Part shown: positions 38,728 to 42,975 of the stretch, piece by piece
Layout: each line of letters opens with the position of its first letter
Numbering within the stretch: position 1 is the first letter of the stretch
Origin: Chloroflexota bacterium
GTDB lineage: Bacteria > Chloroflexota > Limnocylindria > Limnocylindrales > CSP1-4
DNA: 44,329 bases
Reading direction: 5' to 3'
Assembly (NCBI GenBank): GCA_021783595.1
Contig: JAJXTS010000004.1
Span: 1-44,329 of the forward strand
Notes under the pieces: model-generated
What the model saw: only the letters and a program-made list of their open reading frames with translations
Told to the model about the DNA's origin: nothing
Database searches by the model: none
Position numbers and translations under genes: made by a program

Positions 38728-39437
38728 AGGACCGACGGGTTCAGCAGGCCGCGCCGAACCGTGTACCGGAGGAGCTCGACCCGGTCGTGCAGGTCGAGCT
38801 TCTCCATGAGGCTGGCGCGACTGGAGTGGACGGCCTGCTCGGAGAGGTCCAGCGACCGGGCGATGTCGCGGTTCGTGTGCCCCAGGGCGGCCAGGAGCAG
38901 GATCTGGCGCTCGCGGTCCGTGAGGTGCTCGTACGGGTCGTCGGCCGCCGCCGGGGTCCGGCGGACGTACGTGTCCACCATGCGCGTCAGGATCGCGGGG
39001 CTCACGTACGTGTGGCCCGCGCTCACGGCCCGGATCGCGGCGACCACGTCGTCCGCGAGCGCCTCGCGGGTGAGCAGCCCGGTGGCGCCCGCCTTGAGCA
39101 CGGTGGCGAACTGGTCCGTGGCGCACCGGCAGTCGAGGGCGATCACCCGGGTCCCGGGGGCGGCCGCGCGGACCTCGTCGATCGCCTCCGGCACGCCGAT
39201 GCCGTCGGCGGCGAAGGCCTCGTAGCCCAGGATGACCACGTCGGGCGCCGCCGACCGCGCCTGGGCGAGGATGGCCTGGCGGCTCCGCGCCTCGGCGACG
39301 ACGGCCATGTCGCGCTCGTGGTCGACCACGGACCTGAAGGCGGCGCTGAGCATGGGGAAGTCGCCGATCGCGAGCATGACGCCAACCATGGCGCCATCGC
39401 GCGGCACTCCGGAGCTCTGGTCGCGGGCAGCCGTCAT
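38724..39437 (-). CDS. LuxR/NarL-type response-regulator-like protein with degenerate receiver domain
   Basis: C-terminal HTH LTDRERQILLLAALGHTNRDIARSLDLSEQAVHSSRASLMEKLDL; N-terminal receiver fold lacking the usual phospho-Asp; ORF may extend to GTG at 39497. Confidence 0.88.
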   Translation of the reverse strand: MTAARDQSSGVPRDGAMVGVMLAIGDFPMLSAAFRSVVDHERDMAVVAEARSRQAILAQARSAAPDVVILGYEAFAADGIGVPEAIDEVRAAAPGTRVIALDCRCATDQFATVLKAGATGLLTREALADDVVAAIRAVSAGHTYVSPAILTRMVDTYVRRTPAAADDPYEHLTDRERQILLLAALGHTNRDIARSLDLSEQAVHSSRASLMEKLDLHDRVELLRYTVRRGLLNPSVL

Positions 39438-39683
39438 CGGGACGCCGCCCCCCGGGTCTCGAGCCTGTCGCGGCCTGTCATCGCTCCACTCCCGCACGTG
39501 GGCCCACCTTCGACCCCACGTCCGTCATGGTCGGCTGACCGGACCGGCTCCCGACAGGCACCCCAGGGCGGATCTCACGGGCCCCGGGTGGGCAAACGCG
39601 GCCACGGTGGCGCCAACCCGCCACGCATCCGGGTGGCGTCTGGCAACGCTGGTGGGGTTCTCGACTCACCAGCATTGGCCGGC

Positions 39684-39699
39684 ACCCCCGTTCGGGGGT
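39684..39699. promoter_or_regulatory. palindrome ACCCCC-GTTC-GGGGGT, candidate NarL-type operator
   Basis: Perfect inverted repeat between the regulator/cytochrome operon and the cys operon. Confidence 0.4.
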
Positions 39700-39760
39700 A
39701 TCGCCGCCGCCTCGCCCCGCGCCTCGGGAGCCCTCCGTGCACGATTCCCGGGCTGGCCGC

Positions 39761-39766
39761 TATCCT
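39761..39766 (+). promoter_or_regulatory. -10 element TATCCT giving a predicted leaderless transcript starting at the ATG at 39773
   Basis: TATCCT-GCCCCC-ATG; same 6-nt spacing as other genes in the window. Confidence 0.5.
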
Positions 39767-39772
39767 GCCCCC

Positions 39773-39865
39773 ATGACCACCCGCACTCGTTGCCCCGGCC
39801 GCCGCGGCTGCTGCTCCTGTCCTGGGCGAGCGCCGGCAGCGAGCCCGGTCGCGGTCGTCCGCTAG
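39773..39865 (+). CDS. putative cysteine-rich leader peptide [30 protein letters not shown] upstream of cysE
   Basis: 30-codon ORF with Cys codons 7, 13, 14, 16; leaderless promoter arrangement; directly upstream of cysE-cysK. Confidence 0.6.
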
Positions 39866-39964
39866 ACCGTCGCCCCCCGCAGTCGGCCTCGCGCCCTTGC
39901 CCTGCCGCCCCGGCCGGCCCGAGGCCCGGGCGGCGCGTCCCACCCGCCGATTCGCCGTGCCGTG

Positions 39965-40022
39965 GGGGCGAGCGTCCCGCTCCTCCCGCCGCGGCGTCCG
40001 CCGACCCGCTGACCGGAGAGCG
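39965..40022 (+). promoter_or_regulatory. alternative hairpins at the cysE ribosome-binding site
   Basis: CGCTC 39978-39982 can pair with GAGCG 39970-39974 or with GAGCG 40018-40022 overlapping the SD; GAGCGTCC occurs at both 39970-39977 and 40018-40025. Confidence 0.4.
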
Positions 40023-40025
40023 TCC

Positions 40026-40880
40026 ATGCCCACCCAGATCGACCACGACCGAGACCACGCCTTCGCCGAGGTGCTCACCGGCGACCGCGCCGCCCACGGC
40101 CGCATCTACCCGCTCAAGCGCGACGTGGCCGCCTTCGCGGACGAGCTGCTCGGGATCCTGTTCCCGCAGCTCTCCGACAACGCGCTGTGCGCCGAGGACG
40201 ACCTCGCTGCCCGGCTGGTGCTGGCCCGGCGGGACCTGCGGCGGCTGGTGGAGCCGCTCACCGACGCCGAGGCCGCGGACCGGGTCATCGCCGCGTTCGC
40301 GGACGCCCTGCCCCGCGTCCACGCGGCGCTGCTCGAGGACGGCGAGGCGATCCTCGCCGGCGACCCCGCCGCCGAGTCGCTCGACGAGGTGGTGGCCGCG
40401 TACCCGGGCTTCCTCGCCATAGCGATCCACCGCCTCGCGCACGAGCTCTACGCGCTCAAGGTGCCCGTGCTGCCGAGGCTGCTCGCCGAGGTGGCCCACA
40501 CGCGCACCGGCATCGACATCCACCCCGGCGCCACGATCGGGCGCGGCTTCTGCATCGACCACGGCACCGGCGTCGTCGTGGGCGAGACCGCGGTCATCGG
40601 CGACAACGTCAAGCTCTACCAGGGCGTGACGCTGGGCGCGCTGTCGGTGGTCAAGGCCCTGGCCGGGCACAAGCGCCACCCGACCATCGGCGACCGCGCC
40701 GTGATCTACGCCAACGCGACCGTCCTCGGCGGTGACACCGTGGTCGGCAGCGACAGCATCGTCGGCGGCAACGTGTTCATCACCAGCTCGATCCCCGCGG
40801 GCTCGGTCCTGTACCAGACCAGCCGGTCCCGCGTCCGCCGGGCCGACGAGGGGTTCGACGGTATCGACTTCGTCATCTAG
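40026..40880 (+). CDS. cysE: serine O-acetyltransferase (EpsC/CysE family)
   Basis: [45 protein letters not shown]...[21 protein letters not shown] hexapeptide repeats; GGAGAG SD. Confidence 0.94.
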
Positions 40881-40946: not shown

Positions 40947-41876
40947 ATGCCCGTCTCCAGTGTCCTCGACCTCATCGGCAACACCCCGCACGTCCGGCTC
41001 AACCGGCTGTTCGACCCGCGCGTGACCGTCTGGACCAAGCTCGAGCGCGCGAACCCCGGCGGCTCGATCAAGGATCGAATCGGCCTGGCCATGATCGACG
41101 ACGCCGAGCGGCGCGGGGCGATCGCGCCGGGACGGACCACGATTGTCGAGCCCACCTCCGGCAACACCGGGATCGGCCTCGCGCTCGTCGCGGCCGTGAA
41201 GGGCTACCGCCTGATCCTGACCATGCCCGAGTCGATGTCCGTGGAGCGCCGCAAGCTCCTGGTGGCGTACGGCGCCGAGTTGGACCTCACGCCGCGCGAG
41301 CTGGGGATGAAGGGTGCCATCGCCCGGGCGAATGAGCTCGCGGCCGACATCCCCGACGCTTGGATCCCGATGCAGTTCGACAACCCGGCCAACCCCGCGA
41401 TCCACCGGGCCACGACGGCGGACGAGATCGCCCGCGATTTCCCGGACGGGCTCGACTACCTGGTCACCGGGGTGGGCACCGGCGGCCACATCACCGGTGT
41501 CGCCGAGGCGCTGAAGCCGCGCTGGCCGCACCTCAAGGTGTACGCGGTGGAGCCGACCGCCTCGCCCGTCCTGTCAGGCGGCGCGGCCGGGCCGCATCCG
41601 CTCCAGGGGCTCGGCGCAGGCTTCGTGCCGGGCGTCATGCGGACCGACCTGCTCGACGGCGTCCTGCAGGTGGATGGGCCGGCCGCGATGGACTACGCGC
41701 GCCGGGCCGCCCGGGAGGAGGGCCTGCTGGTGGGCATCTCGTCGGGCGCGGCGCTGGCCGCGGTGGCGCAGCTGGTGCCGTCGGTGCCGGACGGGTCGCG
41801 GATCCTCACGTTCGCGTACGACAGCGGCGAGCGGTACCTGTCCGTCGAGGCGCTGTGGCCCGCGCTCGGCGCGTAG
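40947..41876 (+). CDS. cysK: cysteine synthase A (O-acetylserine sulfhydrylase)
   Basis: [65 protein letters not shown] upstream. Confidence 0.95.
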
Positions 41877-42197: not shown

Positions 42198-42429
42198 CGG
42201 TTACCTCCGCCACCCATGCTGCAACTCCAGTGTTGCCATTCCGCAATCGCCCGGTGAAGATCTGGAAACTCTGGGCAATTCTGGGTAGGTTCTCATGAAC
42301 CGGGCCGGCCGCCCGCCCGAACCGGCCGCGCGGGATGCCGCGCCGGCCCGCCTGCCCGCCGTCGGGCGTGGCACCCTAGTCACGTCCCGGCGTCGCGGTG
42401 TCGCGATCGGCGGCGACGCACGGGAGGCC

Positions 42430-42975
42430 GTGGTGGAGATCCGCAAGATCGTGCTCGAAGTGGAGGAGACGTACGCCGCCGCCGGGCGCGTGCTGGCGCG
42501 GCCCACCCGCAAGGCCGTCGCGTCGGCAGTGATCGCGAACCCGTTCGCCGGCCGCTACGTTGAGGACGTCTCGCCGCTGGTGGACCTGGGCGCCGAGCTG
42601 GGCCGGCTGCTCGCTGAGCGGGCGCTGGCGGCGCTCGGGCCGGACGCTGCCGTCACCGCCTACGGCAAGGGCGCGATCGTGGGGACCAACGGCGAGCTGG
42701 AGCACGCCGCGGCCATCCTGCACCCCAAGTTCGGCGCGCCCGTGCGGGCCGTGGTCGGCGGCGGCCCGTCGATCATCCCCAGCACCAAGCTGGTGGCCGG
42801 CCCCGGGACGCTCCTGGCGATGCCGCTGGTCAACCGTGACGACCTGTGGAGCTTCGACGAGATGGACGCCGCAACGGTGCAGATCCCCGATGCGCCGCGG
42901 GCGGACGAGATTGTGGTGAGCCTGGTCCTGGCCGCCGGGGGGCGGCCGGGCGCACGGACGAGGAAGGCGAGCTGA
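42430..42975 (+). CDS. amino acid synthesis (AA_synth, DUF1185-like) family protein
   Basis: VEIRKIVLEVEETYAAAGRVLARPTRKAVASAVIANPFAGRYVEDVSPL...AVVGGGPSIIPSTKLVAGPG; GTG start after GGGAGG. Confidence 0.83.
   Translation: MVEIRKIVLEVEETYAAAGRVLARPTRKAVASAVIANPFAGRYVEDVSPLVDLGAELGRLLAERALAALGPDAAVTAYGKGAIVGTNGELEHAAAILHPKFGAPVRAVVGGGPSIIPSTKLVAGPGTLLAMPLVNRDDLWSFDEMDAATVQIPDAPRADEIVVSLVLAAGGRPGARTRKAS

Follow-up and report, generated by a model that had tools for sequence, protein, structure and literature searches.

A candidate cysteine-responsive leader ORF with competing RNA pairings upstream of cysE-cysK in an uncultured Chloroflexota family

Results

The leader ORF and its genomic context

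We analyzed a 44,329-nucleotide stretch of a Chloroflexota genome, hereafter the window, in which a short cysteine-containing leader ORF precedes the genes cysE and cysK (Table 1). An initial annotation had placed this ORF, with Cys codons 7, 13, 14 and 16, at 39773–39865 and a TATCCT hexamer ending 6 nt before its ATG; the ORF agreed with both the sequence and its translation, and the hexamer could be read directly, GCCCCC forming the spacer up to the ATG at 39773. The serine acetyltransferase and cysteine synthase that the annotation had named as the next genes are backed by family models, and cysE is preceded by the Shine-Dalgarno (SD) sequence GGAG. From the position of the −10 element, we infer that the transcript begins with the leader ATG or immediately beside it. 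A search of Rfam with positions 39200–40200 returned a chance match only and no known element.

The surroundings of the operon were also inspected. On the minus strand, between 34806 and 39497, genes for a LuxR-type response regulator, a multihaem cytochrome, a 4Fe-4S protein and an NrfD-like membrane subunit lie in a row; judged by these predicted products, they form a respiratory cluster oriented divergently to the cys operon. Shortly 3′ of cysK, positions 42325–42972 of the plus strand encode a protein of the PF06684 'amino acid synthesis' family (E=5e-66).

Table 1. Leader, RNA segments and downstream genes in the window
Feature	Position	Strand	Description
Weak −35-like TGCACG	39738–39743	+	17 nt 5′ of the −10 element; 3/6 matches to TTGACA
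−10 element TATCCT	39761–39766	+	Ends 6 nt 5′ of the leader ATG
Leader ORF	39773–39865	+	30 codons; predicted leaderless by −10 spacing; Cys codons 7, 13, 14 and 16, C-x-C being codons 14 and 16
C-x-C codons TGC TCC TGT	39812–39820	+	Putative sensor codons and part of the H1 5′ arm
H1 hairpin (segment 1:segment 2)	39813–39844	+	Arms 39813–39827 and 39832–39844; loop GAGC 39828–39831
Segment 2, GCGAG-C-GCCGGC	39826–39837	+	Common to H1 and H2
Segment 3, GTCGGC-CTCGC	39882–39892	+	3′ of the leader stop; H2 with segment 2, 11 bp with one bulge
Segment 4	40008–40018	+	GCTGAC 40008–40013 complementary to 39882–39887; adjoins cysE GGAG 40015–40018
cysE, serine O-acetyltransferase	40026–40880	+	First gene under proposed control; TIGR01172 E=9e-48, Hexapep
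cysK, cysteine synthase A	40947–41876	+	Second operon gene; TIGR01139 E=8e-118, above cut-off

Conservation and distribution of the leader

When the cysE upstream region was aligned across relatives, a check suggested in the initial annotation, the ATG-initiated ORF and its clustered Cys codons were found to be kept. Genomes of the same genus (G002, G003, G004, G006, G007, G008 and G009) retain the start, the −10 element, the C-x-C and the position of the stop, as does G029, of the same family. The cysE leaders of the genus follow the peptide pattern M(T/N)TRxRR...G.CCSCPRR..., and that of G029 has RCSCPRR. A second leader in G002, VIGIAREGRTGRCCSCPRREPEAVERAVVRA, begins with a GTG 6 nt after TACGCT and lies 5′ of a gene for a DUF4395 protein (PF14340, E=3e-24).

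The leader set was widened beyond the genus by a core pattern search and then by a model built from the core, the hairpin and the post-stop region, with the −10 element and the start codon left out. Applied to 177 class genomes, this model gave 32 matches at E<1e-3, every one in a single family (f1), and among 399 genomes of the phylum beyond the class only one marginal match (E=0.0096). DUF4395 and/or cysE/cysK lie 3′ of 30 of the 32 strong matches. At least four gene orders occur, among them leader-cysE-cysK, leader-DUF4395, leader-DUF4395-cysE and leader-DUF4395-cysK. A TANNNT motif stands 5–10 nt 5′ of an in-frame ATG or GTG at 27 of the 29 loci checked, against a background of 0.0008 per nt, and a near-consensus −35 box (5/6 matches: TTGACC, TTGACG or TCGACA) is found at a spacer of 16–17 in 6/25 leaders. 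Spacing is regular: in most leaders the first C of C-x-C lies 39 nt from the start, other distances differing by whole codons, and the end of the stop codon 54 nt further on.

We also scanned 85,462 species genomes for the combined −10, start, C-x-C and hairpin pattern. This yielded 19 loci, 18 of them Chloroflexi MAGs with DUF4395, cysE or cysK genes 3′ of the leader, a count that includes one locus without a tagged gene (L130) by way of its apparent longer twin (L108, the G022 C52 site, with DUF4395). The remaining match, in Bauldia (L116), was rejected as a chance hit with an in-frame stop. Separately, a match in G022 C79 (L109), with no −10 element and a different gene, was excluded from the leader set. 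In the same 85,462 genomes the core pattern had no Mycobacterium or Streptomyces match.

Short multi-Cys ORFs are common in DNA of 70% GC, and unrelated ones turned up in upstream regions, so an accidental ORF had to be considered. Since promoter, ORF, codons and gene context are conserved together across genera, we regard this explanation as having almost no credibility: by its conservation in sequence, the leader ORF is more than chance.

DUF4395 genes (e.g., 1653–2153 of L040) repeatedly share both the cysteine leader and operons with cysE/cysK. This association suggests a role for DUF4395 in cysteine or sulphur metabolism.

Variant and decayed leaders

Several loci depart from the common arrangement. 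In one (L107, G004:C59) the leader has decayed: C-x-C has become C-L-G, the −10 position reads CACGCT so that TANNNT is lost, and DUF4395 is gone downstream. At three others (L080, L084 and L089, in G071, G082 and G098) cysE follows the leader with traces of DUF4395 in between, its start surviving as a remnant in L080 and L089 and only its ribosome-binding region being recognizable in L084, which suggests that a deletion of DUF4395 moved cysE next to the leader. Two short, divergent C-x-C leaders (L013 and L014, in G010 and G012) lie 5′ of a second type of cysE and have a CATNNT placed 6 nt 5′ of their ATG; one of the peptides is MASQRLTCACPGRH and the second has 19 residues. Finally, a separate and unrelated-looking leader, MNTPMRFGAAAPDRHVSTACCCCRRRPRSREDVVRKD, stands 5′ of DUF4395 in two species (L136, G008:C95, and L137, G006:C121). 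It contains CCCCRRR, with four consecutive TGT codons and a TAGTCT 10 nt before the ATG, and the two loci share nearly identical DNA that spans the Cys run and most of the 3′ leader.

Constraint on peptide and codons

The C-x-C-x-R-R motif is common to nearly all leaders, while the remaining peptide varies freely between sub-families. At the codon level, the second Cys of C-x-C is TGT in 25/25 leaders, as opposed to 1.5% of the Cys codons in the cys genes of the same genomes, and the second Arg is CGA in 24/25 leaders versus 9% usage. The fixation of TGT and CGA at synonymous sites indicates that the RNA, and not the peptide alone, is constrained. Differences by codon position within the leaders were uninformative as coding evidence (66/27/61 and 35/42/27 by position), so the coding status rests on the conserved start, length and stop.

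The conserved C-x-C-x-R-R motif is what one would expect of a functional small protein that acts in trans through a C-x-C metal or thiol site. We consider this very improbable, given the constraint on synonymous sites together with the RNA pairing described below, the free variation of the rest of the peptide, the position of the leader in cis, 5′ of cysteine genes, and the lack of a match for the leader peptide in Pfam and NCBIfam searches. Leaderless upstream ORFs can also alter downstream translation (PMC9031893), and the leader might thus be constitutive, feeding ribosomes to the operon or damping its translation independently of cysteine. With the leader stop about 87–166 nt from the gene, too far for coupling, and with Cys codons that are kept and fixed in position, such a role is equally hard to credit.

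Three competing pairings in the leader RNA

Numbering RNA positions from the first Cys of C-x-C, three mutually exclusive pairings, H1, H2 and H3, emerge from sequence comparison across the leader family. H1 is a hairpin with arms at approximately +1 to +15 and +20 to +35 around GAGN; its 5′ arm carries the Cys codons, so that two or three of them lie within a hairpin ahead of cysteine-making genes. In permutation tests, which here and for the other pairings do not fully remove relatedness, matched H1 arms paired better than species-swapped ones (p=0.03, n=14 at 75% identity; p=0.0005, n=18 with four more divergent leaders added), and in its fixed register 83% of cells were paired compared with 34–61% when it was slid. 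Double compensatory changes are few (2 cells), and H1 covariation did not reach significance when the subset was smallest and most divergent. The window genome (G000) keeps H1 in an altered register.

H2 joins GCGAG-N-GCCGG (+14 to +24) to CCGG(x)CUCGC at +71 to +90. The CUCGC is present in 25/25 leaders, in most of them 17–36 nt 3′ of the leader stop, and matched duplexes outperformed swapped ones (p=0.006); since CUCGC was used as the anchor, this gain comes from the flanks. In H3, the post-stop element pairs instead with the region around the SD of the gene that follows (p=0.0014, matched versus mismatched), as in the DUF4395 transcript of G002 (GCUCCGGG:CCCGGAGC) and in G022 (GGCCUCGCG:CGCGAGGUC). 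In a window scan over the mRNA, H3 pairing was strongest between −18 and +6 relative to the start codon, and no signal was seen upstream of −36. Both H2 and H3 persist when sequences are clustered at 60% identity (n=6, p=0.038 and 0.018, respectively), and four control cross-pairings at n=14 were not significant. Two other readings of the switch were tried and discarded on these tests: Cys codons of the 5′ arm pairing directly with the SD showed no covariation (p=0.32), and segment 2 with the SD gave p=0.15.

Segment 3 pairs with the SD itself in G002, G003 and G004, and H3 also covers the SD in the DUF4395 leader of G010. The H3 of the window genome is weaker than that seen family-wide, consisting of 6 bp (39882–39887 with 40008–40013) that adjoin the SD and do not cover it, and single-sequence folding of this copy pairs the SD with a local CUCCUCC (39981–39988). 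Release of the SD is thus better supported for the family than for this copy. Predicted SD accessibility increased in the stalled state in 16/25 sequences only; both for G000 and overall, this prediction was set aside as too noisy in RNA of 70% GC.

Discussion

A proposed translational attenuator

The best account of these features is attenuation of the cysE-cysK operon by a leader ORF that responds to cysteine, probably at the level of translation and in a way resembling ermC; we assign this account a probability of roughly 0.65. That the leader senses cysteine seems to us highly probable, and a translational output through release of the SD is slightly favoured. With ample Cys-tRNA, the ribosome would move past the Cys codons and H1 would re-form, leaving segment 3 to pair with, or beside, the cysE ribosome-binding site (H3) and keep expression low. 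With scarce Cys-tRNA, the ribosome would stall at C-x-C, cover the 5′ arm of H1 and free segment 2, which would pair with segment 3 (H2), expose the ribosome-binding site and raise expression. Going by the usual ribosome footprint, a ribosome whose A site holds the first C-x-C codon would extend to about +12, so that the first arm of H1 would be covered and segment 2 free, favouring H2 over H3 and exposing the SD.

The initial annotation had proposed a Cys-tRNA stalling sensor analogous to mycobacterial leaders. The sensor is supported by the conserved ORF, the promoter spacing, the C-x-C, the cysteine genes and the RNA pairings, and the decay of both C-x-C and TANNNT in the leader that has lost DUF4395, as well as the separate CCCC leader 5′ of DUF4395 in G006 and G008, also speaks for it; we infer its translation, its stalling and the direction of its response from these sequence features. 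The analogy holds less well, as the layout is not simply mycobacterial: the Cys codons lie mid-ORF within a hairpin and form no run near the stop.

The same cysteine-sensing leader could have a different output, namely Rho-dependent transcription attenuation, in which naked C-rich RNA behind the stop codon would recruit Rho after normal termination at the leader, and a stalled ribosome or H2 would hide that RNA. Such a mechanism has been proposed for mycobacterial cys leaders (Seliverstov 2005, PMC1262725), and the region between stop and SD is 49% C and 28% G, with C exceeding G in 25/25 leaders, while the region upstream of the promoter has 36% of each; composition, however, cannot prove a Rho site. 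An intrinsic terminator was sought in the window between the leader stop and cysE (39866–40025) and none was visible, as no T-run there exceeds 2. By itself, Rho leaves the SD-specific covariation with segment 3 unexplained, and we think it unlikely as the main output; Rho-dependent attenuation, alone or together with SD release, is possible from the sequence features. As for the SD-release scheme taken whole, an ermC-like 1:2/2:3/3:4 attenuator reading Cys-tRNA on a leaderless mRNA, confined to one uncultured Chloroflexota family and with DUF4395 in the cysteine regulon, we put its chances at about even.

Relation to known leaders

Within the collection of papers searched, none on cysteine leader ORFs in Chloroflexota was found. 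Cysteine leader ORFs as a kind are known; relative to these papers, the RNA architecture, the phylum and the link to DUF4395 are new. Among the papers examined, cysteine-sensing leader ORFs have been described in Actinobacteria and Rhodobacterales, the mycobacterial ones without a visible RNA switch. Because the present family shows competing RNA segments, the step from a slow ribosome to gene output becomes testable by point mutations. If the proposal is right, a ribosome short of cysteine at the leader would probably switch on the cysteine-making genes of these uncultured Chloroflexota. The leaders also tie DUF4395, for which no function is known, to cysteine supply.

Polycysteine-encoding leaderless short ORFs of mycobacteria are reportedly the subject of work by Canestrari in 2020. 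Leaderless short ORFs with clustered Cys codons 5′ of sulphur/cysteine genes were described in mycobacteria by Shell 2015 (PMC4633059). A slowing of ribosomes on such ORFs under cysteine scarcity has been proposed. The Chloroflexota leader is likewise a short Cys-codon ORF 5′ of cysteine genes, here cysE, cysK and DUF4395. The mycobacterial Cys run, however, lies near the C terminus and the stop, whereas the Chloroflexota C-x-C is mid-ORF, in most leaders 18 codons from the end, and belongs to a conserved hairpin that has a pairing partner 3′ of the stop. In Streptomyces lividans, a leader annotated as metL (PMC8079986), MSTTSDRTPATEATTTPGARCMCRRMCAF, contains C-M-C-R-R-M-C and, to go by this peptide, might in fact respond to cysteine instead of methionine.

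Candidate leader peptides of this kind were predicted by Seliverstov 2005 (PMC1262725) in Mycobacterium, Propionibacterium and Bifidobacterium. These too are Cys-codon ORFs, there 5′ of cys/cbs genes, and lack an intrinsic terminator; no conserved hairpins were found in them, while three competing pairings are visible in the Chloroflexota leaders. The LEU element before leuA of Actinobacteria (PMC1262725) is similar in that its regulatory codons pair elsewhere in the leader, including with the SD, but it involves leucine codons, a pseudoknot and another gene and phylum. The uORFC-8-2 motif of Rhodobacterales cysS (PMC8632094) places two Cys codons, at about 14–15, in a stem, as in Chloroflexota, but it precedes cysS, not cysE, cysK or DUF4395, and its 3′ end is an intrinsic terminator whose U run has no counterpart in the window.

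The closest parallel to the proposed output is offered by ermC-type translational attenuators (e.g., PMC5118997), in which stalling on the leader refolds the mRNA and exposes the next SD. Stalling in ermC depends on a macrolide and the nascent peptide, whereas here it would occur at Cys codons on a putatively leaderless transcript. The 1:2, 2:3 and 3:4 pairings of ermC, with the SD in segment 4, have family-supported candidate counterparts in H1, H2 and H3, and in the window segment 3 adjoins the SD.
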